DNA of 64,000 nucleotides from contig NC_089437.1 of the NCBI RefSeq assembly GCF_026210795.1, positions 310,001-374,000 of the forward strand. Direction: 5' to 3'. Below, in pieces: positions 3,501 through 52,720 of the stretch. How positions within the stretch are numbered: position 1 is the first letter of the stretch; each line of letters starts with the position of its first letter. The translations under genes were made by a program, and so were the position numbers. This DNA is from Rhizophagus irregularis. Taxonomy: Eukaryota > Glomeromycota > Glomeromycetes > Glomerales > Glomeraceae. The notes beneath the pieces are model-generated. The model worked only from the letters and a program-made list of their open reading frames with translations. It did not search any database and was not told the origin of the DNA.

Positions 3501-4724
3501 TGAAAGGTAAAAAAAAAATAAAAAAAAATTACAACAAAAAATATTGATTTTTGGTTTTCAAAAAAAAATAAAATAAGAAATATTTGGCAAATTGTAGGTC
3601 TTTAAATAAAAAAAAAATTGCCTTTGCTCCATTTTCAATGATACCGAATATTATTGCATCATCTTTATTGATATTGCATCTTTTTAATAATTATGCATTG
3701 ATTACAAGAAAGTAACTTGATTTAGAGATAATACAGTAACACCTCCCTAAGTGCACGCACCTCGGGACCGACTATGCACGTGCACTTAGGGAGGGTGTGC
3801 ATTTATAGAACAGCCAATAGAAAAATAAATTTTGTTACACAATTAGATTTCCGACAAAAAATTTTTTAAATTTTTTTTATTAAACTCAAATCCAAATAAA
3901 ACAACATATTTTGCAAAAATTTAGTGAAAATATGTGTTAATGTCAGTTTGCCGCATTAAACTATTTTTTTTGGCCCTAAAAAATTTTTCAATCTTTCCCA
4001 CTAACTTATATACTCATCCGCTGTAAACGGCCGAATATCAAGTACGAAAAGATGATAAAATACGACCACCAAAGGTAATTTCCAAATATTAAGAACGAAC
4101 AAATTAACTATGGATTGGCGTGGATGGATAAATAATTAGCCGAAAAGGATAAACATTTAGGAAGAGTAATGATCTACATGATGTAATATTTATCAAATGA
4201 TTGACAAAGAACCAATAGGATAAATAGAGTCGATCAATTGGGGCTTAGCAATCTTTAACAATAAGAACGATTAGAAAGAATAATTATAAGCCACAAAAGA
4301 TAGATTACAAGCAAAACGCATAAAGCGGATTGAAAGAACATATAAAATAATGTCAGAAAGATTAAAGAACATAAAATATTATAAAAGATAATATAAAAAG
4401 ATTATACAAAGATATTATAAAAGATAATATAAAAAGATTATACAAAGATATTATAAAAGATAATATAAAAAGATTATACAAAGATATTATAAGAGATAAT
4501 ATAAAAAGATAGCAAAAAGATGGAACATAAAAGATAATATATTAAAAAGAACATATATAAAAAGATAACATATATATAAAGATAGCATATTAAAAGATAG
4601 CGTATTTAAAATATAGATAGCATATTAGAAAGATAGTTCAAAGATAATATGTAAAAAGAACATAGTATGTAAAAAGAATATAAAAGATAGTATATAGATA
4701 GAATAGAAAGAAGTATAAAGTTTG

Positions 4725-4732
4725 TATATATA
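4725..4732 (+). promoter_or_regulatory. LTR TATA box
   Basis: TATATATA lies in the central part of the LTR, preceded by an AG-rich region. It is the best candidate for the retrotransposon promoter and marks the U3/R boundary region. The same sequence is at 14565-14572 in the 3' LTR. Confidence 0.55.
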
Positions 4733-4778
4733 GAGAACGGAATTCAAGGTAATTCCACAGTTCTCATCCACAGAACTC

Positions 4779-4784
4779 AATAAA
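4779..4784 (+). terminator. LTR polyadenylation signal
   Basis: AATAAA lies about 50 bp downstream of the LTR TATA box and is followed by a T-rich tract, as expected at the R/U5 boundary. The functional copy would be the one in the 3' LTR at 14619-14624. Confidence 0.5.
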
Positions 4785-5247
4785 AATATAAGTTTTATTT
4801 TTTTAATTATTTGTTAGTAAAGTTTAATGTTAATTAAAGGTAATAGGTTCGCCCTAAACTTTAATTAATGTTTGCTTAATTAATTTTAATTGAATAAATG
4901 GAAATTTTAAGATGAATTAAATATACACTTTTGGAAAGTAATAATTCGTAGCGAGAGCTATCGAAGTTTGAAATTAAAGGTAAAAGTGGATATAATTTGG
5001 GAAAATTTAGAGAAGTTAAATTTTATTTTATATCATTCGACGTTTTATATTACTAACGCTATTTATGTCGTGAACCAAGAATGTTGTATGTTGTTCGTTG
5101 ATTATGTTGTTTGTTAATTATGTCGTTGATTATTAGCTTGTTCGTTTAATTGTTCATTCGTTCGTTTATTCGTTCGTTCGACCATGGGAATGCCCGTTCG
5201 ATGTGGCAACTCTGTAAATTGATGACAGAGGGAATTGGGGGATCTCA

Positions 5248-6796
5248 TATGGTGCATGCTCCGAGAAAGGAAATGATTATCATCACATGATTATTAATAT
5301 GAAAATTTAATTTCGTTAGTAAGTCACTGATAGGTATTATTAATCAATATTTTATTTTAGAATTTATTTTTAGATTTCAGGTTTTGACAAGTTCAAAAGG
5401 AACCAATAAATCAATAAGGATTTAATCGAGTTAAAAACTTGGAAAGGTGAAAGATTGGAGTTTGTTGTTGTGCAAGTAATCATTTAATTGATAGAAAGCA
5501 CAAGAATATTTCTTTCGGGAATAAAGTACCTGAGAAATTTCATAAGGAGATGTGGAAGTGAAAGATGAATTTTGGAATAAAGATTAATAATGGGAGAACA
5601 CCAATGTATTATCCGGGGTTCATCTGTGTGGTATGGGTTACCTCTGAGTTTGAATTTTGGATAAATGCTCGAAATTGGAAAATTTTTATTCTTCGACATT
5701 AAAGATTATAACGTATGGGTTACGTCAAATCTGGATACCCAGCTCAATAATGCGCAAATTGCTTTGGGAACGGGGAATGAAAATTGTAAAGACACCTACT
5801 ATCAAGAAACATTGAATGGATAAAATAGGACAAACCTGTAAACTATCATGCTTTTACCCAATGGGAAAAAGATAGAGATAAGCCCAGTATAGGTCCACCA
5901 ATTTGAGGAAAGATAAGTTGGTTTAGATGAGTTTTATGGATAGCTGATGACTTTTGAAACTGGATTTTGGAAGGTTAGATTCACCCGTTAAGAGACGAGT
6001 CGGCCAACGAAGGAAGAAAAAACGGATACGTCGTATTGTTACAGGTCCTAGGCTACATTTCAGATGAAGGTTCCTGGTGTAGTGTCCTAGTTCACGCTCT
6101 CATTACAATGTTCCGTTAAAAGAAGATAAAATAGAAGGATATTTACACATTAACGAGCCGTATAATGAACATTACGTGCAGTATTTAATAATAGAGTAAA
6201 ATCCGAAAAGAAGGACGTTTATTTAAAAGAAGGACATTTATTTAAAAGAAGAACATTTATTTGAAAAAGAATATTTATCTGAAAAAGAACATTTATTTGA
6301 AAAGAAGGACATTTATCTGAAAAGAACGACATTATGTGTACTATAGATTAATTTACATAATATAGAATATATAGTAGGAAGGATTTATGTGGACGATAAG
6401 AAAGATTGGAAATCCGCGAACTCTAAAAGTTATGAAAATTTTGGAGTTTGTGACATGTGAAATTACGGATATCGGTGATAAAAGATAAATTTTATGGCGC
6501 AGTAAAAAACCTCCACAGCCTGAGGAGATTGTGGACTTAGAATAATTTTTGAAATTTTGAGGCGCAGTAAAAATTAATAGTAGAATATGGCGTAGTAAAT
6601 ATATAAAATTGAAATTTAAAGATTGAAAGAAGCAATCTATTTAAAGATGAAAGAATGTTTAGAAGATTGAAAATAGAAACATAGAAGATTGAAAATAGAA
6701 ACATAGAAGATTGAAAATAGAAACGATAAGAGTGAAGTATAAATATATAAAAGGAGGTGAGATTTTAGTTAAGATTCTGGATGAACGATTACGACG
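5248..6796 (+). other. Gypsy leader (5' untranslated region)
   Basis: About 1.55 kb between the 5' LTR and gag with no convincing ORF. It contains an array of about 18-bp units around ATTTATTTGAAAAAGAAC (about 6215-6335) and three copies of a 21-bp AGATTGAAAATAGAAACATA unit (about 6660-6735). A short upstream ORF (6781-6810, ten codons with the stop) overlaps the gag ATG in another frame. Packaging or translation signals may lie here. Confidence 0.6.
5250..5266 (+). promoter_or_regulatory. Candidate tRNA primer-binding site
   Basis: Two bases after the 5' LTR the sequence TGGTGCATGCTCCGAGA starts with TGG, the complement of a tRNA CCA end. The position fits minus-strand priming. I could not name the tRNA; a host tRNA whose 3' end complements GTGCATGC would confirm it. 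Confidence 0.4.
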
Positions 6797-9700
6797 ATGG
6801 AATGGTATGAAACTTGGAGGGTTGATTACGAGAACCACAAATTAAGACATGACGAAAATATCGGAAATGTAGATATAGACGAATTAAGAGGAGAAAATAT
6901 AACATGTGAAATATGTTATCCAATGAGAGATACACCAGAAGTTTTTAAGAAATTTTGGAGAATATTACAAAAATTTGAATATACGATAAAAGGTTATAAC
7001 GCAGAAACTATAAGAGCGTTATTAAATTTATTAAGTATAGATAGTGAAGAAAGAAATAATTATACAAAAGGAAGGACTAGAGATGCATTAGATGTAATGG
7101 TCGAATCAATAAGATACTTGAAACAACCAATATTGAGAGAGAAAGGATTAAAGATAATAATAATAGTGATTGTGAGAGACTGTATAGAAAATGACAAAGA
7201 AGATGAAACAATGGACAGATTGATAGGGAATGAAGAATTAATAAGATACGGCTATATTTTGGAAGATTGGGATGTAAATATAAGATTTAGGGAATTTTAT
7301 GAATGGCATAAAGTGGCTATATCAGATTTTATAGAATGGAAAGATAGTGTTATTAGGAAATACAAAAATATATTGTATGAGGAAGCAGAATTAGAAGATG
7401 AGTCAATAGAAAAAATAGAGGCGTTCAAACAAAAGATTAGATCGATGTTGAACACAATGTACGTAAAAGGTCGTGGTGGAGGAATTGTGAAAGAAGTAAT
7501 TGAAAAAGTTTATGATAAGATTAGGGGGTTTGAACAATTAAATATAGATGAAACAGATAGTGATGACACACCAAGAAGCTATACTATAACAGAAACAGAT
7601 GATGGGGAAGAAGAAAATTTACCGATTAGTAGAAATGAAGAAATGTCGGATGAGGAATCTAATGAATCTAATAATGTTAAAGAAACAGAAACGACAAAGA
7701 TATTCGAAGAAATAATTAGAATGGATTTGAAAAGAATGGGATATGATGTAGAAATAACAGAAATTGAAAGAATAAGAAAATTTGGAGTAACCGCAAAGAT
7801 AATAACAACGTACGAATTTATGAAGAAGTATTTAACAATATGGAATCTTGAAGATGAAGAATTAGATGAACAAATATTACAATGGAGAGTTGAAAATACA
7901 AAAGAATGCGAAAGATGTGAAATTGAAAGATTAAAGAAAGAATTTAAAATTGGAGAAGAAATTTGCATAGAATGCGAGAAAGATGTTGGAAAAGAAAATC
8001 CAACAGATGACGAAGAGGAAATGGAAGAGGATATAAAAGGACCCGAAATTGGCTCAAGTAAAAAACCAAAAAGTAAAGAGAAAAATAAAAAATCAAAGGA
8101 AGTACCTATAATACCAATAACACCAGTACCACCAATAAAACCAAAGATAACAATGGCAGCATCAAGAGATGAACTCAGAGCAGATCTAAGAGCATTAATG
8201 AATACTATGTATAATCATGATATTGGGGCAGATTGGAACAATTTAGTATTACCACCAGTAACATTGACAGGATTACAAGGAGAAGTTCAAGCGAATACTA
8301 ATGCGATAGGAAATTTAAACGCAAATAGAGGAGCTATTGTAGAAATACCAGCATTTTATGGTACCAGTGGAGAAGATCCAGAAGAATGGGCAGATAAATT
8401 TGAGGAGACATTTACAGCGAATGGTTTAGGGAATGATGACGCACAGAGATTTAGATTAGCAAAAGCGAAATTAATGGGAGGAGCAGCAGATTGGTTAAAG
8501 ACTGAAGGAGTAAATATTGTCGATTGGAATGTTAATGGAGATCATAATTTAAGATTAAGAGTAAGAATAATTGGAAAGTATGCAAGTGATGAAATTAAAG
8601 ATAGATGGCTAGAACAATTAGAAAAGATTAGACAGGGAGACGAGAATGTAACTCAATACCTTACGAGATTTAAGTATATGTTAAAGAGAGCGGGAGGTGA
8701 TGCAGCAGTAGCAGCAAATCAGCAAAAGAGAATTTTTATTAGAGGATTAAAACCGGACTTTACTAAAGACGTAGTAATGGGAAATCCAGCAGATCTAAAT
8801 GCAACATTTCAGATAGCAAAAAACGTAGAAAGAGGTTTAGAAGCATTAACAGATAAAGTACAACCAAAAGGAATTAATGATGAACAAAGAAGACAAGAAC
8901 CTATTGTTCAAGGGAATGTAAGGAATAATAAAGGGGTAAGTGTAGATGAATTAGCGGACAATTTTGCGAAGTTACAAATTAAGATGTTAGAAGATGAGAA
9001 TGAAAGATTAAGAAATTTAGCGAGTCAGAGTTATAGGCGATTGCCACAAAGAAACCAACCAATACAAAGAAATCAACCAATTCAAAGAAATCAGTCATTT
9101 CAAAAAAGGGTACCAACATGTTTCAGATGTAATAGAGTAGGGCATTATAAGAATAATTGTCCTGAAGAAAGGAATGCAAGAGTAAATATGATGGACGAGT
9201 ATTATGATCAAGAAGAATATGATTATGATGAATATGGACACGAGGAACCACAATATAACGGAATGTACTATACACAAGGTTATTACGATGATTATGAAGA
9301 TAGAGAATTAAATTATCATAATGAATTGTACGCAAAAGATAATGCAGTAAAAACAAGAAGACAAACAAGAAGGACAAATCCAATAGTGGGATATAAAAAT
9401 AATGACGAAGGAGGAAATTTACAAGAAGAATTAAGAGAAGCAGGAAATAGAATGGATGATAGAGAAATACCAAGTGGTATAATGACACCAAGGTATACAC
9501 CTGAACGAACTGAACAAAATGAGGATAGACCGATAGGACCAGAGAATTATAATTATGGTCATCGACCTATGACAAGGGACGGAAAATTTTATAAGCCAAT
9601 GTTCACAAAAGAAGGCAAAGTATTTTATCCCGGAATGCGACAAGATGAATCTGGAGAATGGGTTAGAACAAAGCCATCGGAAACAGGAAAGCCTAGAGAA

Positions 9701-9868
9701 TATGGACCAAGATTAACTGACGGAATACCACCTTATGATATTGTGGAAGACGTGAAAAATTGTAGAGCGAATATAACATATGGACAATTAATAAATGGGA
9801 ATAACAAATATCATAAGCAATTGAGGGAAGGAACATATAAGCCAAGAAGCGTAAATGAGAAAAATTGA
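6797..9868 (+). CDS. gag: Gag polyprotein of the gypsy element
   Basis: 1,023 residues, starting at an ATG that opens MEWYETWR. Residues 1-450 are an acidic, charged region with a Cys4 pair (C371-x2-C374, C390-x2-C393) resembling a small zinc ribbon, then a basic linker and a Pro-Ile run. From M453 (MAASRDEL) comes the capsid-like retrotransposon gag domain: PAFYGTSGEDPEEWADKFEE, then WLEQLEKIRQ and QYLTRFK motifs. A CCHC zinc knuckle (C775, C778, H783, C788) would bind RNA. The last 220 residues are Tyr/Asp-rich, then Pro/Arg-rich. Gag forms the cytoplasmic virus-like particle. The length is large for a gypsy gag; M453 could be an ancestral start. It ends in TGA directly followed by CTA, in frame with protease. 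Confidence 0.93.
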   Translation: MEWYETWRVDYENHKLRHDENIGNVDIDELRGENITCEICYPMRDTPEVFKKFWRILQKFEYTIKGYNAETIRALLNLLSIDSEERNNYTKGRTRDALDVMVESIRYLKQPILREKGLKIIIIVIVRDCIENDKEDETMDRLIGNEELIRYGYILEDWDVNIRFREFYEWHKVAISDFIEWKDSVIRKYKNILYEEAELEDESIEKIEAFKQKIRSMLNTMYVKGRGGGIVKEVIEKVYDKIRGFEQLNIDETDSDDTPRSYTITETDDGEEENLPISRNEEMSDEESNESNNVKETETTKIFEEIIRMDLKRMGYDVEITEIERIRKFGVTAKIITTYEFMKKYLTIWNLEDEELDEQILQWRVENTKECERCEIERLKKEFKIGEEICIECEKDVGKENPTDDEEEMEEDIKGPEIGSSKKPKSKEKNKKSKEVPIIPITPVPPIKPKITMAASRDELRADLRALMNTMYNHDIGADWNNLVLPPVTLTGLQGEVQANTNAIGNLNANRGAIVEIPAFYGTSGEDPEEWADKFEETFTANGLGNDDAQRFRLAKAKLMGGAADWLKTEGVNIVDWNVNGDHNLRLRVRIIGKYASDEIKDRWLEQLEKIRQGDENVTQYLTRFKYMLKRAGGDAAVAANQQKRIFIRGLKPDFTKDVVMGNPADLNATFQIAKNVERGLEALTDKVQPKGINDEQRRQEPIVQGNVRNNKGVSVDELADNFAKLQIKMLEDENERLRNLASQSYRRLPQRNQPIQRNQPIQRNQSFQKRVPTCFRCNRVGHYKNNCPEERNARVNMMDEYYDQEEYDYDEYGHEEPQYNGMYYTQGYYDDYEDRELNYHNELYAKDNAVKTRRQTRRTNPIVGYKNNDEGGNLQEELREAGNRMDDREIPSGIMTPRYTPERTEQNEDRPIGPENYNYGHRPMTRDGKFYKPMFTKEGKVFYPGMRQDESGEWVRTKPSETGKPREYGPRLTDGIPPYDIVEDVKNCRANITYGQLINGNNKYHKQLREGTYKPRSVNEKN

Positions 9869-9886
9869 CTACACTCGGTGGGAACT

Positions 9887-10381
9887 ATGAAAAATGAAGA
9901 AAAAAGAACTACAGCAATGAGAACAGAATTAGAAGTTGAAGATCAATTAGTGAATGTAATAATAGATACTGGAGCAGCAGTAAGCGTGATAACAGATAAA
10001 TTAAGAAGAAGATTGAATATACCTATATTTGGAAAAAGTAAATTTAGATGTACAATAGCAAATGGGCAAAAGATAGCAGCGTTAGGAAAGGCAAATATAA
10101 CTTTGAGATACAAAGATGAATTAGAAATACTAAAAGAAGTTGAAGTAATCGATTCAGAAGAAGAGGATCTAATTTTGGGAAATGATATATGGAAGCTATA
10201 TAATGCAAAAATAAATTTTGAAGATCATACCTTAAGAATAGAAGAACAAGGAGAAATAATAACGATTCCAGTAGGATATGAAAGAGAAGCAATATATGAA
10301 AGTGAGGAGAGCGAGGATGACAAAGAATATGAAAGCAACGATGAAGGAGAGGTATTCAAAATGCACCAGAATTTTAAATAG
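9887..10381 (+). CDS. pro: Retropepsin-like aspartic protease
   Basis: A small ORF with the catalytic DTGAAVSVIT motif (Asp codon at 9965) and a downstream DLILGNDIW block, the usual flap/ILG core of retroelement aspartic proteases. It acts as a dimer inside particles to cut Gag and Pol. The first ATG is at 9887, but the frame is open back to the gag TGA at 9866-9868 with no other stop, so the likely product is a Gag-Pro readthrough fusion. It stops at TAG 10379-10381. The next ORF begins 36 bases on, in a different frame. The C-terminus is a Glu/Ser/Asp-rich tail. Confidence 0.9.
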   Translation: MKNEEKRTTAMRTELEVEDQLVNVIIDTGAAVSVITDKLRRRLNIPIFGKSKFRCTIANGQKIAALGKANITLRYKDELEILKEVEVIDSEEEDLILGNDIWKLYNAKINFEDHTLRIEEQGEIITIPVGYEREAIYESEESEDDKEYESNDEGEVFKMHQNFK

Positions 10382-10416: not shown

Positions 10417-12498
10417 ATGCTCGAACCAAGTGGAAAATTTATGCAAAAACTAAGTATAGGGAAAGTAGAAGAACCAATTTGGGAAAATATGGTAAAATTA
10501 CTATTAGAATACCAAGATATTTTGGAATATGACGAGGAGATAGAAGGAAGAACGAAAGCGGCGCAACATGAGATAAAAATAAAAGAGGGGGTAGAACCAA
10601 TAAAGCAAAGAAGATACAAAGAAACAGATGAAAAGGCAAAATTTATAAGCGAAGAAGTGGATAAATTGTTAAAACAAGGAAGGATAAGGAAATCAAAAAG
10701 TCCATGGAGTTCACCGGTTACGTTAGCAGGAAAGAAAACGGGAAAATATAGATTCTGTATTGATTACAGAAAGTTAAACAAGATAACTATAATGGATAGT
10801 TTTCCTTTACCAAGAATGGATGAATTGTTAGACAAATACAGAAAAGCAAAATGGTTTTCAAGTATAGATTTAGCGGCAGGATTTAATCAAGTAGAAATGA
10901 AAGAAGAAGACAAAGAAAAAACAGCATTTGTATGTTCGAAAGGATTATTTGAGTATAATGTAATGCCGTTCAGTTTAACGAATGCACCAGCAACATTTCA
11001 AAGATTAATGGATGAAATATTAGAAGAATACATAAACGATTTTGTGGTAGTATATATCGATGATATTATGATATATTCGGAAAATTTAAAAGATCATATG
11101 GAACATGTGGAAAAAGTATTAAAGAAGTTACGGGAGAATAATTTGATAATAAAATTAAAGAAATGTAGATTTTTGGAAAGAAACATAGAATTTTTAGGAC
11201 ATATAGTAGGAAATGATGGATTAAGGCCAGACGATAAAAAGATAGAAAAGATAAAAGAAATGAAGGCACCAACAACAGTGAAAGAAGTAAGATCATTTCT
11301 AGGACTTTGTTCATATTACAGAAAATTTGTGAAGAATTTTTCAAAGATAGCAAGACCAATAAGTGATTTGAGAAAGAAGGGAATACCTTTCATTTGGGGA
11401 AGAGAACAACAAGAAGCGTTTGAAAAATTGAAAGAAAAGTTAATACAATATCCAATATTGCGACATCCAGATTGGAAGAAAGAATTTTTATTAATAACAG
11501 ATGCATCAGGAAAAGGATTAGGTGCAGTATTAAGTCAAAAAGATGAAAAAGGAAAAGAAGTAGTAATAGCATATGCAAGTAGAAGTTTATTACCAGCAGA
11601 AGAAAATTATCCGATAACAGAATTGGAATGTTTAGGAATAGTTTGGGGAATTCAACATTTTCATAAATATTTAATCGATAGAAAATTTAAAGTAATAACA
11701 GATCACAGTGCATTAAAAGGATTAATGAATGCAAAGATACCAAAAGGAAAAAGAGCAAGATGGGTGATGGAATTACAGCAATATAATTTTGAAGTAATAC
11801 ATAGGTCGGGAAAAGAAAACACGAATGCCGACGCATTAAGTAGGTTATTGAAGATAGTAGAGGATCAACCAGAAATAGTAATAATCGACGGAGTAGATGG
11901 ATTAGGAAAAACAAGTATAGTACAAAATTTAATTAAAGAATGGGAAAAACAAGGATTAAAAGTAAGATTCAATACTTATAAAAGAAGAAGAAAAGACAAA
12001 GATGAATTTCACGAATCAAAGATGGATACAGAATGGAAATTTAGAAAAGAAGTAGTAGAACAAATAAATAGAAGAATGTTAGAATATGATGAAGATACAG
12101 ATATAATAATTTTAGACAAATCACCATATTGTGAATATTATTACCAAAAGACGAAAAGTTTTGACAGAGGATTAATTACTCCACATGGAAATCATGAGAT
12201 GGAAAAAGAAATATTCAGACTGAAAGAAACGATAGATAAATCAATAGTGATATTTTTAGAAAAAGATGGTGACGTATGTTGGAAAAATTACATTGGAAGA
12301 GAAACAAAGAAAACGGAAAAATCATCATATCCAACATTAAAGAAGGATGAATATTTGGACATGGTTAAAATGTTTGAAGAAAATCAAAGTGTGTATAAAG
12401 ATACCAAAAGATACAGTCGAGTAAAAGTTAAAAATGACAATAGTAGTTGGAGAAAAGTATTTAAAGAGGTGGAGAAATGGAGAAGAGCACAGAACTAA
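10417..12498 (+). CDS. pol: Reverse transcriptase-RNase H fused to a thymidylate/deoxynucleoside-kinase-like domain
   Basis: 693 residues from ATG 10417. RT spans about residues 60-290 with the catalytic YIDD box at 213-216. RNase H spans about 350-480 with ITDASGKGLGAVLS (D362), TELE and NADALSRL motifs. From about 485 a domain not normal for gypsy pol begins: EIVIIDGVDGLGKTS is a P-loop (G492 to T499), then ILDKSPYCEYYYQ (D567) at the place where thymidylate/deoxynucleoside kinases carry a DR-S/Y motif, then IVIFLEKDGDVCWKNYIGRE, like the strand plus LID. Such kinases phosphorylate dNMPs or deoxynucleosides with ATP. The ORF ends in TAA immediately after the kinase, splitting pol from integrase. 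Base composition of the kinase part matches the rest. Confidence 0.92.
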   Translation: MLEPSGKFMQKLSIGKVEEPIWENMVKLLLEYQDILEYDEEIEGRTKAAQHEIKIKEGVEPIKQRRYKETDEKAKFISEEVDKLLKQGRIRKSKSPWSSPVTLAGKKTGKYRFCIDYRKLNKITIMDSFPLPRMDELLDKYRKAKWFSSIDLAAGFNQVEMKEEDKEKTAFVCSKGLFEYNVMPFSLTNAPATFQRLMDEILEEYINDFVVVYIDDIMIYSENLKDHMEHVEKVLKKLRENNLIIKLKKCRFLERNIEFLGHIVGNDGLRPDDKKIEKIKEMKAPTTVKEVRSFLGLCSYYRKFVKNFSKIARPISDLRKKGIPFIWGREQQEAFEKLKEKLIQYPILRHPDWKKEFLLITDASGKGLGAVLSQKDEKGKEVVIAYASRSLLPAEENYPITELECLGIVWGIQHFHKYLIDRKFKVITDHSALKGLMNAKIPKGKRARWVMELQQYNFEVIHRSGKENTNADALSRLLKIVEDQPEIVIIDGVDGLGKTSIVQNLIKEWEKQGLKVRFNTYKRRRKDKDEFHESKMDTEWKFRKEVVEQINRRMLEYDEDTDIIILDKSPYCEYYYQKTKSFDRGLITPHGNHEMEKEIFRLKETIDKSIVIFLEKDGDVCWKNYIGRETKKTEKSSYPTLKKDEYLDMVKMFEENQSVYKDTKRYSRVKVKNDNSSWRKVFKEVEKWRRAQN

Positions 12499-12558
12499 AA
12501 ATACAGAACACATAACGAAAATAACAAATTTAGAAGCGAAATCAATTAAAGAGGTATT

Positions 12559-13785
12559 ATGGAAGAAGATAATTACAAGAGAATAATTGACAATATCGAA
12601 AAGGAGAATAAATATGAATTGAAAGAAGGAATTCTATATAGAGTAAAAGGACAAAACAAATTTAGAGTAATCAGGGATTATGAATACGAAGGATTGATGT
12701 ACATAATGCATAATAACGAATTATCAGGACATTTTGGAGTAGAAGCGACATTAGACAGAATAAAAGAAAATTATTGGTGGAAGAATATGAAAGAAGACGT
12801 AGAAGAATATGTAAAAACATGTTGGAATTGTCAAATGAGAGGAAAACCAGGAGGAAAGAACGAATTAATGCCGATAAAGATAAATGGACCATTCGAGATG
12901 ATTGGGATAGATATAGTTGGACCATTAAAAGAGACAGAAAAGGGAAATAAGTATATTGTAGTAGCAATGGATTATTTTACAAAATGGCCCGAGGCCGCAC
13001 CACTAAAAGAAGCTACAGCAAAAGAGGTAGTAGAATTTATTTGGAGAGACATAATTTGTAGACATGGATGTCCAAAGAAAATAATTAGCGATAGAGGGAC
13101 TCACTTTAACAATAAAATGATGGAAGAATTAGTAGAAAGATGTGGGATAAATCATAGATTAAGTACACCATATAGGCCACAAACAAATGGTTTGGTCGAA
13201 AGATTCAATAAAACTTTATGCGAAGGATTAGCCAAATTAGGAGAAGAAAATTGGGATAAACATATACCATCTGTATTATTTGCATATAGAACAAGAAAGC
13301 AATCGTCAACAAAAATTAAACCTTTTTATGCAACATACGGAAGGGGAGCGAAACTACCATTAGATAAAGATGAAAACAAGATAACATTAGCTGATAGAGT
13401 AAAAATACTAATTGAGGAGCTACCAGTAATAAGAAGAAAAATGAAAGAAAATGTGGAAGAAGCTCAAGAGAGACAAAAACAACAACATGACAAAAGAGGA
13501 ATTAGAAAACCTAAATTTGAAATAGGAGAAAAAGTATTATTATATGAAGCGTGGAGAGAAAAACAATGGTCTGGAAAATTACAGAACAAATGGAAAGGAC
13601 CATATTTAATTCACGAAGAATTTGGAAATGGGGCTTATAAACTCAAAGAATTGGACGGAAGAATACTAAAGACACCACAAAATGGAGAATGGTTAAAGAA
13701 ATTTTATGATCGAGGGAGATTTACACCAAAAATAGTAATTAAAGGAAAAGAGGTATTCGATAAGACTCGAGTTCGATTCGATTAA
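12559..13785 (+). CDS. int: Integrase of the gypsy element
   Basis: 408 residues. The N-terminal zinc domain has H51, H58, C88 and C91 (HHCC). The catalytic core has D118 in GIDIVGPL, D178 in IISDRGTHF and E214 in GLVERFNK, giving exactly D-x35-E. The C-terminus has a GPY/F-type module (WKGPYLIHEEFGNGAYKL, about 350-390); no chromodomain is visible. It inserts the cDNA into the host genome. It shares the frame of the RT ORF, but two in-frame stops (12496-12498 and 12547-12549) lie between, so it must be expressed by reinitiation, a separate transcript or inefficient double readthrough. Confidence 0.92.
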   Translation: MEEDNYKRIIDNIEKENKYELKEGILYRVKGQNKFRVIRDYEYEGLMYIMHNNELSGHFGVEATLDRIKENYWWKNMKEDVEEYVKTCWNCQMRGKPGGKNELMPIKINGPFEMIGIDIVGPLKETEKGNKYIVVAMDYFTKWPEAAPLKEATAKEVVEFIWRDIICRHGCPKKIISDRGTHFNNKMMEELVERCGINHRLSTPYRPQTNGLVERFNKTLCEGLAKLGEENWDKHIPSVLFAYRTRKQSSTKIKPFYATYGRGAKLPLDKDENKITLADRVKILIEELPVIRRKMKENVEEAQERQKQQHDKRGIRKPKFEIGEKVLLYEAWREKQWSGKLQNKWKGPYLIHEEFGNGAYKLKELDGRILKTPQNGEWLKKFYDRGRFTPKIVIKGKEVFDKTRVRFD

Positions 13786-13845: not shown

Positions 13846-13861
13846 GCGAAGAGGGGGATAA
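13846..13861 (+). promoter_or_regulatory. Polypurine tract
   Basis: GCGAAGAGGGGGATAA ends directly at the first base of the 3' LTR. It is the expected plus-strand primer for reverse transcription. Confidence 0.7.
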
Positions 13862-15087
13862 TGTAAACGGCCGAATATCAAGTACGAAAAGATGATAAAA
13901 TACGACCACCAAAGGTAATTTCCAAATATTAAGAACGAACAAATTAACTATGGATTGGCGTGGATGGATAAATAATTAGCCGAAAAGGATAAACATTTAG
14001 GAAGAGTAATGATCTACATGATGTAATATTTATCAAATGATTGACAAAGAACCAATAGGATAAATAGAGTCGATCAATTGGGGCTTAGCAATCTTTAACA
14101 ATAAGAACGATTAGAAAGAATAATTATAAGCCACAAAAGATAGATTACAAGCAAAACGCATAAAGCGGATTGAAAGAACATATAAAATAATGTCAGAAAG
14201 ATTAAAGAACATAAAATATTATAAAAGATAATATAAAAAGATTATACAAAGATATTATAAAAGATAATATAAAAAGATTATACAAAGATATTATAAAAGA
14301 TAATATAAAAAGATTATACAAAGATATTATAAGAGATAATATAAAAAGATAGCAAAAAGATGGAACATAAAAGATAATATATTAAAAAGAACATATATAA
14401 AAAGATAACATATATATAAAGATAGCATATTAAAAGATAGCGTATTTAAAATATAGATAGCATATTAGAAAGATAGTTCAAAGATAATATGTAAAAAGAA
14501 CATAGTATGTAAAAAGAATATAAAAGATAGTATATAGATAGAATAGAAAGAAGTATAAAGTTTGTATATATAGAGAACGGAATTCAAGGTAATTCCACAG
14601 TTCTCATCCACAGAACTCAATAAAAATATAAGTTTTATTTTTTTAATTATTTGTTAGTAAAGTTTAATGTTAATTAAAGGTAATAGGTTCGCCCTAAACT
14701 TTAATTAATGTTTGCTTAATTAATTTTAATTGAATAAATGGAAATTTTAAGATGAATTAAATATACACTTTTGGAAAGTAATAATTCGTAGCGAGAGCTA
14801 TCGAAGTTTGAAATTAAAGGTAAAAGTGGATATAATTTGGGAAAATTTAGAGAAGTTAAATTTTATTTTATATCATTCGACGTTTTATATTACTAACGCT
14901 ATTTATGTCGTGAACCAAGAATGTTGTATGTTGTTCGTTGATTATGTTGTTTGTTAATTATGTCGTTGATTATTAGCTTGTTCGTTTAATTGTTCGTTCG
15001 TTCGTTTATTCGTTCGTTCGACCATGGGAATGCCCGTTCGATGTGGCAACTCTGTAAATTGATGACAGAGGGAATTGGGGGATCTCA
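13862..15087 (+). repeat. 3' LTR of the gypsy element
   Basis: Identical to the 5' LTR except one base (14997 G against 5157 A). It contains the TATA (14565-14572) and AATAAA (14619-14624) copies. Its outer end abuts the last codons of the Tigger transposase. Confidence 0.95.
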
Positions 15088-16752
15088 CCGCGTTGTCCTG
15101 CTGAAGTAGAAATGTACGTACAGTTTCTAAGCAAGAAATTGCAGTGCTAGCACTAATAATGGGACTTTCGTTACTATCATCCATTTCTTCTAAATCCATA
15201 TTCTCCTCATCAGTATTCTTAAAGAGATATACGAGTTCTTCAACAATTTGATCATCTTTTGGAACTTCGTAAACAACATTTTCTTCAGGTATGTTAAGAA
15301 ATTCATCCACCTGCATTGGATAGGGAAGATTAAGGGCTTGAAGTGCATCTGCGAGATCATTAAGCGTCAAATTTTCATTTTGTCGAATATTCTCTGAAAT
15401 ATTTCTCAAATTTACATTTGCATCGGGAAGAATCTTTGTGTGATGCCAGCAGTTATGAATTATTTCAGCATCAACTTCTTCCCAGGCTTGGATGATATAA
15501 CGAATTGCCTGTAAGACATCCATGCGCAAATCTTCTGCACGGTTACCTGTCTCTACGTATTGCAGCATCAAACTTTAAAATAATAGTTAGATTTGAATGG
15601 GAAGAACAAATACATGCACATGCAAATCTCATAATGATACACCACCGTACATGAAACCGACGATAGTATCGTTTAAAGGACATAATTACTCCAGCATCCA
15701 TGGGCTGTATTTTTGAAGTTGTGTTTGGAGGCAAAAAATGAACATCAGTGTATCGTAAGGTAATTTCTCCTAACTTATGACTAGAACAATTATCAAGGAG
15801 AAGTAATACACGTTGTCCTTGATGCTTTAGACCAACTTGACGATCAAATTCCCGAATCCATTCTTGGAAGAGTGATGTGATCATCCAGGCTTTGGCATTA
15901 TGACGGTATATCATAGGCATTGCTTGAATTCTTATATTCTTAAAGCAACGCGGTCTTTCAAATTTTCCAATTATTAAAGGGTTTAATTTATGTGACCCAT
16001 CAGCATTTGCACATAATGCAATCGAAAGGCGTTCTCTGTTCACTTTGCGTCCAGCAAGACGTTTGGTCGCAAGTGTACGATCTGGTTCTAGCCTACAAAT
16101 ATGCAAGTAGATAAGTACGATAATTTTAATTTTTTCAACTAAAGATTTACCAAATTTACCTGTAAAAAAATCCAGTTTCGTCCATATTATAGATTCTTTC
16201 GGGAGGGTAATTGGAACAAAGTTCTCTTAATAGAGGTAAAGCATTAGCGATAGCAGTTTCATCAGCAGATGATGCTTCTCCTTCAAGCTTTCGTCGGCGA
16301 ATTCCATTGTGATCCTTGAATTTATGGAGCCATCCTGAAGAAAACTGTAATGCATTTTGAGGAATACCTAGTCCTTCAGCAATCATTTTGGCTTTTTCTA
16401 TAAGTATTGCATCACTTAAAACCGTTCGATGCTGATAATTTAAAACAAATTCCTTGAGCGCAAGCTCAAGTTCTGGGTAGGTAACTGACTTATGCCGCTT
16501 TGAATTTGGGCTGATAGGTTCTGAATTAAGTCGGTTTTCTGCTGTTTGTAGGATGCGAGTAATGGTGCTTTCATTAACTTTAACACTCCATTTTTCCTCA
16601 ATCCAGCCAACATACTGAGACCGGGTTCTTTTATTATCGCGAGCGTAAACACAAAGTTCGTGCTTTTGAATTTCAGTAAGAGTTGTTCTTTTAAGAGACA
16701 TTTTTAGGGGCATACGGCTGATTTCAATGTTATTATATAATGGTGAAATCAT
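14954..16752 (-). CDS. CENP-B/Tigger-type DDE transposase, three exons, end replaced by LTR sequence
   Basis: Exons 16752-16160, 16092-15643 and 15572-14954 join in frame (1,662 bases, 553 residues). The introns are 67 and 70 bp with GT/AG ends. The N-terminus has the two helix-turn-helix DNA-binding parts of CENP-B/pogo proteins (MSLKRTTLTEIQKHELCVYA, then SGWLHKFKDHNGI). The catalytic core has IYNMDETGF, LLLLDNCSSHK and TSKIQPMDAGV, giving a D-D-D triad. The gypsy element enters after ...LLQQDNA; before insertion the frame would have ended about five codons later, at the TAG complement now at 4001-4003. The present ORF instead reads about 40 residues into the LTR. The catalytic region is intact, so function may survive; expression may be affected because the original 3' end is 11 kb away. 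Confidence 0.85.
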
Positions 16753-33905: not shown

Positions 33906-34359
33906 ATGATTGGACATTCAACTTCACGTGCTTGTGTTTTCATAAATTCAAATAATCCATCCTTACCCAGTCAATTAATAAATTCTCCTACTCCTTTGAT
34001 ACGACCACCATTTCCTCCTACAATAGATCCACACGATCTAATTTCTCCAGTTAATACTTCAAAGGATTCTAAGGATGATTTAAGTCAAAAAAAGCTTCGT
34101 ACAAGGGCTCCTAACGCTTTTATAATTTATCGTAAGGTTTTTATTGAAACTGCACGTTCTCAAGGTTATTATTTACCAATGACTGTGATTTCTTCCATGG
34201 CATCTCAATCTTGGGAAAAAGAAAATGAAGTGGTTAAATCTGAATATAGACGTTTAGCAAGGGAAGCTTTTAATATTCATTGTGAAATGTTACCAAAATC
34301 TTTTTCTCCACGTCGTAGAAAAAGAGAGAAATGGAACATAATCTCTTTTGATGACCAAG

Positions 34360-34391
<32 letters not shown>

Positions 34392-34712
34392 TTTATGAGA
34401 ACGAAGAAAGAGGAATTACCGGGTTTATTTAGTTGGAATAGTCGATCTACTACTGAACCTTGTATTGAACATGTTACTTTTACAAATCCAATGTTATCAT
34501 CATCTAATTTATGTTCATCCGGTTTATCCGGTTCCCCTGAATTAAGTAATAATATTCTTTTAAAAGAACATTATAATCCTGCTCTTAAATTACCCCCTTT
34601 AATTCCCTCTAATAATAAGAATCATGCGATGCATACTTCACTTCCTAAATTATTTAAACCTGTAATTTCTAGTAAAATTCGTTTATTATTGAATGATGAT
34701 GATGATGAATAA
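33906..34712 (+). CDS. MATA-type HMG-box protein
   Basis: 268 residues, a single exon. Residues about 65-128 form an HMG box: RTRAPNAFIIYRKVFIETAR, then PMTVISSMASQSWEKE, then YRRLAREAFNIH. This order and the PNAFIIYR start match fungal mating-type (MATA) HMG boxes, which bind and bend DNA in the minor groove in the nucleus. A basic SPRRRKREK patch (about 134-142) follows and could be a nuclear-localisation signal. An Asn run encoded by (AAT)n lies at about 153-162, and the acidic C-terminus ends in DDDDE. N- and C-terminal thirds are Pro/Ser-rich and low complexity. Rhizophagus species carry many such paralogues, so membership of the family does not make this the mating-type locus. Confidence 0.9.
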
Positions 34713-46383: not shown

Positions 46384-47852
46384 CTATTTTTTAACCACCT
46401 GAAAAGCTTCATAATCATCGATTTCAAAACTCCCTGGAATATTGATATTAGGATAGGAATTTGGTTTAGAATACCATTTGTTATTTTGGCTGTCAGGGTA
46501 CATTGCTATATCATAGTTATACCCGAAAATTGGTCCCCATTGATGATTACATATCAAAGCATGAGAAGCATCGGTTACTCTTCCAATTTTACCCCTATTA
46601 ATATCTCTATAATCGTTAAAGATATATACAAAACTATCTTGAGTATCTTTGAAGATACCACTCCCTTCCCAATCAAGCGGATTATATCCACCAACTATTT
46701 TATTAGTTCCCTTAATTTTAATAACTATAATAGTTGCTCCTTTGTTATTACATTTATTATGAAATGCTGCTGCTGTATTGCCATCTCTACTAGCACGAAA
46801 GATAAGATTAAATTCATAAGGATTTATTTTCAAAGATGTGTCTTTTTTGTCTATCCAACCTGCAAATAATGCTAAATGTTTTGAATTTATAAGAACAGAA
46901 TCAATAGTATTAACAGCAATTCTTGATGGTAGAGATCCTATCTGTTTTGCATGTGGAACCAAATAAAACTTCAAGATCTCGTTTTTTAGTTTTTTTGGTA
47001 GCAAATCATCATATGGTACTACTTTGTCATAATATTCTTCAGAGGTAATATCATGAAATCTAATTAATGGGATAAATCTCAATAGCGTCCTCTCCATTAA
47101 AGTTAATTCATCTTTAGTCCATTCGGAAGGATCCTTATTAACGGTAGGTTGTTGTGCATGAGCCCATCTGATCAAATTATTCCATACTTCAATTTCATCT
47201 AGTACAAGATCGTCTCGTTTAAGTAATGATTCCAATATCTGTGCAGGCAATGATAATATTTTGTCAGTTCCAAATAAAATGTATGGATCTTTGCAGATCG
47301 CTTCTAGGCCATAACCTCTCAACGTTGTAAAATTTTCATGTTGAAAAGCTACTTCAAGAATTCCAATAGGATCATTTTGTTTAATTAAAAATTCTTGGAT
47401 ATATTCGCCAAGTGTATCCAACCCAAGTTCCCCTGTAGCGACTAATAATTTTGAGATATCTGGCCCATTGTTGACATTTAAATCTAATTGACCACAATAT
47501 AAATATCTAGATTTCGATTTTAAATAAGATTTTAGATTATAAATAAAAAAAAAATTTTTTTTAATTTTTTTAATTAAAATTTTCAATACCTTATAATAAT
47601 TTCAAAAATATGTGGCGAAATATTTGGTTTGTTAAAAACGTACTTTCCATCTATTTTTTCAGCCCAGTTAGAAGAAAAAGCTGTATCAAAATAATCTGAT
47701 TGACAGCTAAGAATGTTTGAATGAGCGTAAATTTCTTTTTGATCATCATCATCTCCAGCTTTTATAATAACATCATAATCCTTTTTTGACTCAAATAATT
47801 TTTCAAGATTACTCAAAATCGGTAAAAATAACTCTTGTTGCATTTTTGGCAT
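46384..47852 (-). CDS. BTB-BACK-TLDc protein, copy 1
   Basis: Exons 47852-47590 and 47506-46384 (83-bp intron) give 461 residues. The BTB domain (about 20-110) has KKDYDVIIKAG, EIYAHSNIL and SDYFDTAF. The join makes IIIR-YLYCGQLDLN. BACK (about 140-215) has LLKRDDLVLDEIEVWNNLIR. TLDc (about 270-460) has HLALFAGWIDKK, FNLIFRASRDG and the final FEIDDYEAF. BTB-BACK proteins commonly adapt substrates to Cullin-3 ligases; TLDc domains are linked to oxidation resistance and V-ATPase binding. The role here is unknown. It starts MPKMQQ, two codons upstream of the start used by its paralogues, and lacks a seven-residue NQKKFLQ insert present in copies 2 and 4. Confidence 0.9.
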
Positions 47853-48518
47853 TTTTGTAAAAAGGTACGAAGAAATCGCGTAAAGAAATTGATTTTGTAA
47901 TCATAAACGCGTTTAACACGTTTCCTTTTTATTGATTAATTGGTTTCACACGTTACGTAAGTGATGTTCATCAAATTTGACTTATATTATCCAGATCTAC
48001 AGCTTTTTCGTGACAATAAAAAAATAGATTAATCACGTTATATACTGTATCACGTGCTTGTAGATAATTATACCAATTTAGCGCCTATAAATAAATAAAT
48101 TTTATATTTTTGAGTCCAAAACTTCGAATGGACTACTTAATACACCCAATTTACAATTTCGAAAACCAACATGATACTGTATGTATATTGAATTTAGTAT
48201 TTATCAGTGCAATATTATTTCCTTTTTTGTTAAAGTAATAGCAGTTAAAGCAATAATTAGATAACTTCAACGAAAAAAAATATTTAGCTGGTTAACAGTT
48301 GGTCAGATAAAATATTTAGAATTAACAAAAAAACAAACTACAAAAAATAAGAATGAACATCAGTAAGCGTTCATTAAATAAAATAAAAAAAAATAAAAAA
48401 ATCAATATGTTACATTTTTTTTTAATTCCTTTAATTTAATGTCTTGCCTTTATTATAACATGATATAAGTATTTACTGTTAATTTCAATGGAGCTTGTTA
48501 TTTTTAACATATTAAAGT
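47853..48518. other. Spacer between BTB copies 1 and 2
   Basis: Holds the copy 1 promoter (TTACGTAA, then GTGATGTTCATCAAATTTGA and ATCACGTTATATACTGTATC motifs shared with copies 2 and 3) and the 3' flank of copy 2. No other gene. Confidence 0.6.
47953..47960. promoter_or_regulatory. TTACGTAA site upstream of BTB copy 1
   Basis: A perfect palindrome, about 100 bp upstream of the ATG and at a similar position in all four copies. TTACGTAA is a classic bZIP half-site pair. Conservation within recent duplicates is weak evidence alone, but it survives where neighbouring sequence has changed. Confidence 0.4.
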
Positions 48519-49984
48519 CTATTTTTTAACCACCTGATAAGCTTCATAATCATCGATTTCAAAATTCCTTGGAATATTGAGATTAGGATAGGTCATTGGA
48601 TTAGAATACCATTTATTATTTTGGTTGTCAGGGTACATTGATAAATCATGTCCATTTCCGAAAATTGGCCCCCATTGATGATTACATATCAAAGCATAAG
48701 AAGCGCTAGTTACTCTTCCAATTTTACCCGTATTAATATCTCTAAAATCGGTAAAGTTAAATATAAAACTATCTTGAGTATCTTTGATGATACCACCCCC
48801 TTCCCAATCAAGCGGATTATATCCACCAACTATTTGATTAGTTCCCTTAATTTTAATAACTATAATAGTTGCTCTTTTGTTATTACATTTATTATGAAAT
48901 GCTGCTGCTGTATTGCCATCTCTACTAGCACGAAAGATAAGATTAAATTCATAAGGAATCATTTTCAAAGATTTGTCTTTTTTGTCTATCCAACCTGCAA
49001 ATAATGCTAAATGTTTTGAATTTATAAGAGCAGAATCAATAACATTTCTTGACGGTAGAGATCCTATCTGTTTTTCTTGTGAAACCAGGTAAAACTTCAA
49101 AATTTCGTTTTTTAGTTTTTTTGGTAGCAAATCCTCATATGGTACTACTTTGTCATAATATTCTTCAGAGGTAATATCATGAAATCTAATTAATGGGATA
49201 AATCTCAATAGCGTCCTCTCCATTAAAGTTAATTCATCTTTAGTCCATTCGGAAGGATCCTTATTAACGGTAGGTTGTTGTGCATGAGCCCATCTGATCA
49301 AATTATTCCATACTTCAATTTCATCTAGTACAAGGTCGTCTCGTTTAAGTAATGATTCCAATATCTGTGCAGGCAGTGATATTATTTTGTCAATTCCAAA
49401 TAAAATGTTTGGTTCTTGACAGATTGCTTCTATGCCATAATCTCTCAACGTTGCATAAGTTTCATGTTGAAAAGCAACTTCAAGAATTCCAATAGGATCA
49501 TTTTGTAAGAATTTTTTTTGGTTTTTAATTAAAAATTCTTGGATATATTCGCTGAGTATATTCAAACCAAGTTCCTCTGTAGCGACTAACAATTTTAAAG
49601 TATCTGACCCATTTTTGAAATTTAAGTCTAATTGACCACAATATAAATATCTAGATTTCGATTTTAAATAAGATTTTAGATTACCAATAAACAAAAATTT
49701 TTTTTAATTTTTAATTAAAATTTTCAATACCTTATAATAATTTCAAAAATATGTGGCAAAATATTTGGTTTCTTAAAAAAATACTTTCCATCTTTTTTTT
49801 CAGCCTGATTAGAAGAAAAAGCTGTATCAAAATAATCTGATTGACAGCGAAGAATGTTTGAATGAGCGTAAATTTCTCTTTGATCATTATCTTCTCCAGC
49901 TTTTATAATAACATCATAATCCTTTTTTGACAAAAATAATTTTTCAAAATTATTCGAAACTGGTAAAAATAACTCTTGTTGCAT
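48519..49984 (-). CDS. BTB-BACK-TLDc protein, copy 2
   Basis: Exons 49984-49731 and 49650-48519 (80-bp intron), 461 residues. The architecture is that of copy 1. The BTB exon differs from copy 3 by a single residue (NQAE against NWAE). It carries the NQKKFLQ insert before NDPIGILEVAF and the ILFGIDKIISLP variant, shared with copy 4. The linker before TLDc lacks the AVST/AVNT residues found elsewhere (SRNVIDSALI). The TLDc C-terminus has its own variable loop (FGNGHDLSMYPDNQ). Confidence 0.9.
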
Positions 49985-50062
49985 TTTTGTAATGAAACAA
50001 AAGGAATTGTGAAAGAAAGTAATGCTGAAACAAACACATTTCCATTTATTGACAAAGTTGGT

Positions 50063-50070
50063 TTACGTAA
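50063..50070. promoter_or_regulatory. TTACGTAA site upstream of BTB copy 2
   Basis: Lies about 80 bp upstream of the ATG and is followed by GTGATGTTCATCAAATTTGA as in copies 1 and 3. Confidence 0.4.
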
Positions 50071-50610
50071 GTGATGTTCATCAAATTTGACCGCTTTTTC
50101 GTGACAATAACAAAATCGATTAATCACGTTATATACTGTATCACGTGCTTATAGATAATTTACGCGCTCTGCTTCATTTATTATATATTTTTGAGTTCAA
50201 AACTTCGAATGGACTTAATACACTCAACTTACAATTTTGTTTTCATATTCGAAATTTCGAAACCAATATATGTATTAAATTTAGTATTTATCTTTGCAAT
50301 ATTATTTCCTATTTTTGTTAAAGTGATCGCAGTTAAAGCAATAATTAGATAAATGTTCGTCATACTATAAAAAATTTATTTACTCTGAATTAGCATTCTT
50401 ATGCAAATAACTTCAACGAAAAAAAAAAAAATATTTAGCTGGTTACTAATGAACAGTTTGTTAGATAAAAAATATTTAGAATTAACAATACATTTTATTT
50501 AATTCCTTTAATTTAATGTCTTGCCTTTATTATACTATGACTATGATATCAGTACATACTGTTAATTTTTATGGGAAAAAACTTGCTTGTTCTTTTTAAC
50601 ATATTAAAAC

Positions 50611-52061
50611 CTATTTTTTAACCACCTGAAATGCTTCATAATCATCGATTTCAAAACTCTCTGGAATATTGAGATTAGGATAGGAACCTGGATTGGAATT
50701 CCATTTATTATTATTATTATACATTATTATATCATGGCCAGTCCCGAAAATTGGCCCGTATTGATTATTACATACCAAAGCATGAGAAGCATCAATTACT
50801 CTTCCAATTTTACCCGTATTAATATCTCTATAATCGTTAAAAATAAATATAAAACTATCTTGGGTATTTTTGTAGATAGCATTCCCTTCCCAATCAAGCG
50901 GATTATATCCACCGACTATTTGATTAGTTCCCTTAATTTTAATAACTATAATAGTTGCTCCTTTGTTATTACATTTATTATGAAATGCTGCTGCTGTATT
51001 GCCATCTCTACTAGCACGAAGGATAAGATTAAATTCATAAGGAATCATTTTCAAAGATTTGTCTTTTTTGTCTATCCAACCTGCAAATAATGCTAAATGT
51101 TTTGAATTTATAAGAACAGAATCAATAGTACTAACAGCAATTCTTGATGGTAGAGATCCTATCTGTTTTGCTTGCGGAACCAAGTAAAACTTCAAGATCT
51201 CGTTTTTTAGTTTTTTTGGTAGCAAATCATCATATGGTACTACTTTGTCATAATATTCTTCAGAGGTTATATCGTGAAATCTAATTAATGGGATAAATCT
51301 CAATAGTGTCCTCTCCATTAAAGTTAGTTCATCTTTAGTCCATTCTGAAGGATCCTTATTAACGGTAGGTTGTTGTGCATGAGCCCATCTGATCAAATTA
51401 TTCCATACTTCAATTTCATCTAGTACAAGGTCGTCTCGTTTAAGTAATGATTCCAATATCTGTGCAGGCAATGATAATATTTTGTCAGTTCCAAATAAAA
51501 TGTATGGATCTTGGCAGATCGCTTCTAGGCCATAACCTCTCAACGTTGTAAAATTTTCATGTTGAAAAGCTACTTCAAGAATTCCAATAGGATCATTTTG
51601 TTTAATTAAAAATTCTTGGATATATTCGCTGAGTATATTCAAACCAAGTTCCTCTGTAGCAACTAACAATTTTAAGGTATCTGGCCCATTTTTGACATTT
51701 AAGTCTAATTGACCACAATATAAATATCTAGATTTCGATTTTAAATAAGATTTTAGATTACTAATAAACAAAAAATTTCTTTAATTTTTAATTAAAAATT
51801 TCAATACCTTATAATAATTTCAAAAATATGTGGCAAAATATTTGGTTTCTTAAAAAAATACTTTCCATCCTTTTTTTCAGCCCAATTAGAAGAAAAAGCT
51901 GTATCAAAATAATCTGATTGACAGCGAAGAATGTTTGAATGAGCGTAAATTTCTCTTTGATCATTATCTTCTCCAGCTTTTATAATAACATCATAATCCT
52001 TTTTTGACAAAAATAATTTTTCAAAATTATTCGAAACCGGTAAAAATAACTCTTGTTGCAT
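50611..52061 (-). CDS. BTB-BACK-TLDc protein, copy 3
   Basis: Exons 52061-51808 and 51727-50611 (80-bp intron), 456 residues. The BTB exon is nearly identical to copy 2. The BACK region instead follows copy 1 (no NQKKFLQ insert; YILFGTDKILSLP), and the TLDc stretch GNAIYKNTQDSFIFIFNDYR is shared with copy 4. It is therefore a mosaic. The terminal loop is shorter (FGTGHDIIMYNNNNKW), encoded partly by an (AAT)n run. Confidence 0.9.
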
Positions 52062-52139
52062 TTTTGTAAAGAAACAAAAGGAATTGTGAAAGAAAGTAAT
52101 GTTGAAACAAACACATTTCCATTTATTGACAAAGTTGGA

Positions 52140-52147
52140 TTACGTAA
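52140..52147. promoter_or_regulatory. TTACGTAA site upstream of BTB copy 3
   Basis: Lies about 80 bp upstream of the ATG, in the same context as in copy 2. Confidence 0.4.
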
Positions 52148-52720
52148 GTGATGTTCATCAAATTTGACTGCTTTTTCGTGACAATAACTGATAACAAAAT
52201 CGATTAATCACGTTATATACTATATCACGTGCTTGTAGATAATTTACGCCTATCAAGCGTTCTGCTTCATTTATTATATATTTTTAGAGTCCAAAACTTC
52301 GAATGGACTTAATACACTCAACTTACAAATTTGTTTTCATATTCGAAATTTCGAAAACCAATATTTGTATTAAATTTAGTATTTATCAGTGCAATATTAT
52401 TTCCTATTTTTGTTAAAGTGATCGCAGTTAAAGCAATAATTAGATAAATGTTCGTCATACTGTACTATTAAAAATAAAAAATTATTTCACTCTGAATTAG
52501 CATTCTTATGCAAATAACTTCAACGAAAAAAAAAAATATTTAGCTGGTTAACAGTTTGTCAGATAAAATATTTAGAATTAACATGATAACAAAAATCAAT
52601 ATGTTACATTTTTTTTTAATTCCTTTAATTTAATGTTTTGCTTTTATTATACTATGATATTAGTATTACTGTTAATTTTAAATGGAAAAAACTTGCTTGT
52701 CCTTTTTGACATGTTAAAAT

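Follow-up and report, generated by a model that had tools for sequence, protein, structure and literature searches.

Reverse transcription is limited by the supply of deoxynucleoside triphosphates (dNTPs), and some cells keep retroviruses in check by reducing their own dNTPs. In the excerpts considered of two reports (PMC5408684 and PMC6431247), dUTPase is the dNTP-metabolism enzyme described in the pol region of retroelements: it is encoded between protease (PR) and reverse transcriptase (RT) in long terminal repeat (LTR) elements of rotifers (Juno/Vesta/TelKA), planarians and fungi (basidiomycetes), and between RT and integrase (IN) in some retroviruses (PMC5408684). Another enzyme, an AlkB N6-methyladenosine (m6A) demethylase, is found in Ty3/gypsy elements of orchids (PMC9289625, also in excerpt). 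Here we describe a Ty3/gypsy element of the arbuscular mycorrhizal fungus Rhizophagus irregularis whose pol contains a P-loop domain, probably a (deoxy)nucleotide kinase, located after RNase H. It lies in a stretch of 64,000 nucleotides (the window; assembly GCF_026210795.1, contig NC_089437.1, positions 310,001 to 374,000, forward strand), whose coordinates are used below.

The window element resembles the dUTPase-bearing retroelements in having what appears to be a dNTP-metabolism enzyme in pol; it differs from them, as far as the same excerpts go, in that dUTPase hydrolyzes dUTP and occupies the PR–RT position (rotifers, fungi), whereas the window element has a P-loop kinase after RNase H (PMC5408684, PMC6431247). 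The orchid AlkB elements likewise keep a captured enzymatic domain in a Ty3 lineage, but as excerpted they carry it as a separate open reading frame (ORF), with other chemistry and in a plant host (PMC9289625). With the fungal Ty3/gypsy (Metaviridae) elements, the window element shares LTRs, gag, PR, RT, RNase H, H2C2 integrase and the Ty3 order; unlike them, it has the extra kinase, and its pol is divided into several ORFs. The author of a preliminary description of this DNA, made from the sequence alone, knew of no Ty3 element with such a domain, and we likewise found no description of a retrotransposon-borne thymidylate or deoxynucleoside kinase among the papers listed in searches of the open full-text literature, as judged by title and abstract; most subscription papers and all bioRxiv preprints lie outside it, so that an earlier description is possible. 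Nor did such a domain appear in excerpts from two papers that deal with the transposable elements of R. irregularis (PMC8647823, PMC11075540).

A thymidylate-kinase-like domain in pol

The 693-residue pol ORF of the element (10417-12498, plus strand) starts with RT and RNase H (10417..11853; Pfam RVT_1 at residues 106-264 and RT_RNaseH at residues 352-456). Past the RNase H motif NADALSRL, the same frame stays open through a P-loop domain of some 210 residues (residues 486-693; 11872..12495), which comprises the Walker A motif GVDGLGKT (residues 492-499; 11890..11913), the motif LDKSPYCEYYYQ (residues 566-577; 12112..12147) and, downstream, a LID-like NYIGRETKK. We take LDKSPYCEYYYQ to occupy the place of the thymidylate kinase (TMPK) motif DR(H/Y/F)xxSxxAYQ, or of the ERS motif of deoxynucleoside kinases (dNKs); in general terms, it reads DKSPYxExxYQ. 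At thirteen key residues, those of Walker A and DKS among them, 40/40 loci agree; these loci were selected by kinase match and represent 36 distinct places (L021-L024 repeat L002, L007, L006 and L009). In particular, the G, D, G and K residues of Walker A and the D, K, S and Q residues of LDKSPYCEYYYQ are each present in all 40.

The PHROG_761 thymidylate kinase profile matched residues 8-209 of a 214-residue piece with an E-value of 5.8e-14, and the AlphaFold model of the domain was confident (pLDDT 88.5, pTM 0.86). In structural comparison the model matched kinase folds: the TMPK fold spans the whole domain, and the dNK (dCK/dGK/TK2) fold is recovered as well. The domain has the fold, the Walker A motif and the general motif order in common with the thymidylate kinases of PF02223 and PHROG_761, and 15 of 17 alignment members matched Pfam Thymidylate_kin (PF02223) at E <= 0.01. 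Sequence profile searches of the PDB returned mainly FtsY P-loops and were uninformative beside the fold comparison. No dUTPase domain was found among the Pfam matches at E <= 1 in the gag, PR, RT–RNase H–kinase and IN ORFs. The preliminary description had placed the ORF and its motifs at exactly the right positions, and the P-loop nucleotide-kinase fold that it proposed is the one predicted here.

Copies, selection and origin of the kinase

The kinase-bearing lineage comprises several families, and the fusion is real. At least 151 kinase-domain matches were found in the genome (146.7 Mb, 32 contigs), a lower bound as 150 of 172 first-look candidates were scored; the 150 listed matches occupy 30 of the 32 contigs and fall into about five families. 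Among them, 56 are of the family A type, with 94-100% identity spanning 212 or more of the 214 residues, and 53 of these lack an internal stop; 34 belong to the family D band (54-58% identity over at least 200 residues; 33 without stop). Many family B copies (84-88%) list one stop, which in L025 lies at the end of the domain. The kinase lay between RNase H and integrase in all 20 loci that were read, each picked by its kinase match, and 19 of these showed the order gag, PR, RT–RNase H, kinase, IN; in the remaining one (L040) RT–RNase H, kinase and IN were in order, a protease match was 3.6 kb off and gag was unmatched. Each representative of families A, B, C and E has the kinase fused to RT–RNase H; in family D the kinase shares one ORF with integrase, in a frame different from that of RT–RNase H. 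When 150 of 264 candidate RNase H matches were scored, 87 had a listed kinase match within 1.6 kb downstream and 63 had none; the latter group comprises the 61 top scorers and, as the two exceptions among the matches listed, C18:667214 and C13:673482.

The kinase domain is under purifying selection about as strict as that on RT. Within families, its ratio of nonsynonymous to synonymous polymorphism (pN/pS) was 0.062 in A (20 copies, 190 pairs; these are the 20 best kinase scorers, window copy included, a choice that lowers kinase pN), 0.126 in B (4 copies), 0.092 in C (5) and 0.090 in D (6), with codon-bootstrap ranges of 0.032-0.100 (A), 0.049-0.160 (C) and 0-0.343 (D). The corresponding values were 0.054 (120 pairs), 0.141, 0.061 and 0.067 for RT–RNase H and 0.139 (169 pairs), 0.147, 0.102 and 0.148 for IN. 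For all 56 A-type copies, protein identity remains 94% or higher. Between families A and B, nonsynonymous divergence (dN) of the kinase was 0.064 for a synonymous divergence (dS) of 0.74; dS was near saturation between other families. Recurrence of the fusion at multiple loci and a kinase dN/dS below 1, both envisaged in the preliminary description, are what the genome displays, with the ratio far below 1.

In a tree of 27 RT–RNase H sequences, a branch with 100/100 support separated all 20 kinase-bearing from 7 kinase-less sequences, which is consistent with a single acquisition of the kinase; this tree is unrooted, its kinase-bearing members were found via the kinase and it includes 7 of the 63 kinase-less matches, so that kinase losses inside the clade could be missed. 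The kinase behaves as a module, family B carrying a swapped-in copy: its RT–RNase H and linker are near those of C and E, whereas its kinase is of the family A type. Over five kinase windows, family B was identical to A at 176/196 positions and to C at 122/193; in the window before the P-loop, it matched C at 34/40 and E at 31/40. Likewise, dN between A and B was 0.252 in RT–RNase H, against the kinase value given above, and the RT tree joined B with E whereas the kinase tree joined it with A and P0014 (100/98). Gag seems to have been exchanged between families too: L023 and L024 share 98% identity with the window element in RT–RNase H, but only 47% and 52% in the C-terminal part of gag.

All organism-named protein matches came from Glomeraceae (R. 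irregularis, R. clarus, R. diaphanus and Glomus cerebriforme) in a word-based search that remote relatives may escape; the remainder were metagenome proteins, many of them short pieces whose context is not visible. Two proteins of R. irregularis DAOM 197198 were 100% identical over the kinase domain. RNase H or RT is joined to the kinase also in R. clarus, G. cerebriforme and metagenome proteins, and the R. clarus protein model P0114 carries RNase H, the kinase and integrase together. Among the matches, the only clear relatives outside elements were P0034 (46% identical over the kinase domain) and P0127 (37%), both uncultured (JGI), which have a Nudix domain in front and neither RT nor integrase; they may represent a nucleotide-pool enzyme from a virus or host not yet sampled. 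A by-eye likeness of the B, C and E linkers to the Nudix end of these proteins, as if a Nudix tail had persisted upstream of the kinase, proved unsupported: a profile of 56 linkers gave 3.3 bits for P0034 and nothing positive for P0127, with composition shuffles (1000 per protein) reaching 8.5.

No donor of the kinase was found across phage, IMG/VR, prokaryote and host-gene comparisons. Short-pattern scans, which find mainly close relatives, detected no relative among 50,697 phage records (for P0127, the matches were weak, confined to the P-loop and limited to four polynucleotide-kinase records) and none in IMG/VR or prokaryote genomes; two IMG/VR loci, L052 and L053, matched over short P-loop stretches, and their ORFs look like generic P-loop kinases. 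Of four PF02223 matches in the host genome, the exons L041, L042 and L044, which come from two other genes, had no tblastn match to the domain at E <= 1e-3, while the fourth, L043, does match the kinase domain (54%) and looks like an element remnant. Of the capture of a thymidylate or deoxynucleoside kinase gene proposed in the preliminary description, the presence of a kinase-like domain in the element holds; a recent capture from a host thymidylate kinase finds no support in these sequence comparisons, which speak against a recent event only.

The element in the window and its surroundings

The window element is intact, as the preliminary description had noted of its LTRs and ORFs. Two LTRs of 1226 bp with TG...CA ends (4022..5247 and 13862..15087, plus strand) have the same 4 bp, CCGC, on either side of the element as a direct repeat, the target-site duplication (4018..4021 and 15088-15091); because they differ by a single mismatch (position 5156), they suggest a recent insertion. 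These features, together with gag, protease, RT, RNase H and integrase in the Ty3 order, identify a Ty3/gypsy element. A candidate primer binding site, TGGTGCATGCTCCGAGA (5250..5266), lies immediately 3' of the 5' LTR, and the genome contains a 14-nt core of it 91 times, against 0 for the reversed control. Then follow, all on the plus strand, a gag ORF of 1023 residues with a Retrotrans_gag domain and a CCHC knuckle (6797..9868), the aspartic protease ORF (9878..10381), the pol ORF, the integrase ORF (12559..13785; H2C2 and rve by Pfam) and a candidate polypurine tract read from the sequence, AGAGGGGGA (13850..13858), which precedes the 3' LTR. The LTRs carry tandem 36-bp AT-rich repeats (14213-14356, and in the 5' LTR too), and the LTRs of related copies mostly match that of the window element at 80-93%, many only partially.

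Gag ends with UGA CUA, followed directly, in the same frame, by protease (9866-9877), and UGA CUA precedes protease in 18 of 19 loci (L021-L039; L035 differs). Stop codons are known to be read through in the UGA-CUA context, so Gag-PR may arise in this way. The protease ORF ends in U UUU AAA UAG (heptamer 10372-10378), and RT follows in the -1 frame with respect to protease, which makes this stretch (10372-10381) a possible -1 frameshift site in family A. The heptamer adjoins the protease stop in 4/4 family A and 5/6 family D loci; it is missing in families B and C, so that a -1 frameshift between PR and RT was rejected as a general rule. Two in-frame stops separate kinase and integrase (12496-12558). 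In the representatives of families A, B, C and E, integrase has an ORF of its own that starts with a similar MEE(E/D)xY.

Minus-strand ORFs with DDE_1 (15543-16106) and HTH_Tnp_Tc5 (16156-16752) domains lie beside the 3' LTR. Because a further minus-strand ORF with a weaker DDE_1 match (14954-15571) extends into the LTR, the element adjoins or sits inside a Tc5/pogo-like transposon (14954-16752, minus). Elsewhere in the window are an ORF with an HMG box (33906-34712), a tandem gene family of four consecutive minus-strand ORFs with BACK and TLDc domains (46384-53806), and a perhaps broken hAT transposon, whose ORFs match DUF659 and a hAT dimerisation region (56069-57894).

What the kinase may do

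Feeding of dNTP precursors is the most economical reading of the fusion, and we consider it probable, from sequence and model, that the domain is a (deoxy)nucleotide kinase kept by selection, which would aid dNTP supply for reverse transcription. The observations behind it are the predicted fold, the conserved catalytic-type residues, the position, the copy number, the purifying selection and the swapping between families. A Ty3/gypsy lineage of Glomeraceae would have acquired a TMPK-like kinase between RNase H and integrase, once according to the RT tree. Encoded within pol, C-terminal to RT–RNase H in the window family and N-terminal to integrase in another, the kinase would probably be freed by the element's protease or work tethered. 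It would phosphorylate a deoxynucleoside monophosphate (dNMP), most likely dTMP, to the diphosphate, and the host nucleoside diphosphate kinase would finish the dNTPs that reverse transcription needs while host pools run low; the preliminary description conjectured that this may be so in resting spores or non-dividing hyphae. More tentatively, with somewhat less than an even chance, the whole element clade may encode a dNMP kinase in pol that is packaged with RT and RNase H, makes precursors on site and forms a portable module on RT or integrase, derived from an unsampled Nudix-kinase source and not from a host gene.

Several observations weigh against the main reading, as does the sampling of family A noted above for its selection estimate. 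PF02223 scores the window copy at 19.5 bits, below its curated cut-off of 27, and other P-loop families match the 17 homologues about as widely (AAA_14 16, NPHP3_N 15, NB-ARC 14). DK replaces what we take to be the DR of the TMPK motif, N(T/K)(F/Y)KRRR stands at the presumed site of the TMPK REP or dNK EP motif, and the substrate may differ on both counts. Structurally, TMPKs and dNKs tie. A dNK salvaging nucleosides for the element, like dCK, dGK or TK2, is nevertheless unlikely: the best Foldseek TM-scores among the 50 matches shown fall on dNKs (8puu 0.70-0.72, dCK 1p5z 0.71, dGK 0.69), above TMPKs (0.53-0.66), and DKSPY[SC]E resembles what we take to be the dNK motif ERSxYSD, but other dNK chains among these 50 do no better than TMPKs (2jaq 0.57, 1j90 0.61, 1p60 0.59), VIA ranks the S. 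aureus TMPK first inside a tie, and the acidic base of the presumed EP motif is replaced by KRRR. Sequence models also favor thymidylate kinase, and the Pfam matches listed for the window protein at E <= 1 include no dNK family; for its homologues, the comparison covered the first 25 of 47 families.

Less likely still is a reading in which the domain extends RT or IN by binding ATP or nucleic acid, or acts as a 5' polynucleotide kinase; catalysis on free nucleotides would then be beside the point. The fusion to RT–RNase H in four families and to integrase in a fifth fits it, as do the weak matches of phage polynucleotide kinases to the P0127 P-loop; against it, Walker A, DKS and LID-type residues are invariant in the 40 loci, the top fold matches are nucleoside or nucleotide kinases, and the fusion partner varies by family. 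LTR elements can capture host gene fragments, but a passenger without function for the element is very improbable given a kinase pN/pS close to that of RT, retention in families only 54-88% identical to the window kinase and occurrence in several Glomeraceae species. An assembly artefact or a single chance fusion, in favor of which no evidence was found, has a negligible probability in view of the number and spread of the genomic matches and of the same join in R. clarus, G. cerebriforme and metagenome proteins.

With a dNTP-supplying kinase as the probable reading, its RT-like conservation across families opens to direct test the idea that retroelements evolve their own dNTP supply. It also suggests that dNTP limitation may shape how elements evolve in arbuscular mycorrhizal fungi, which are multinucleate and form spores.
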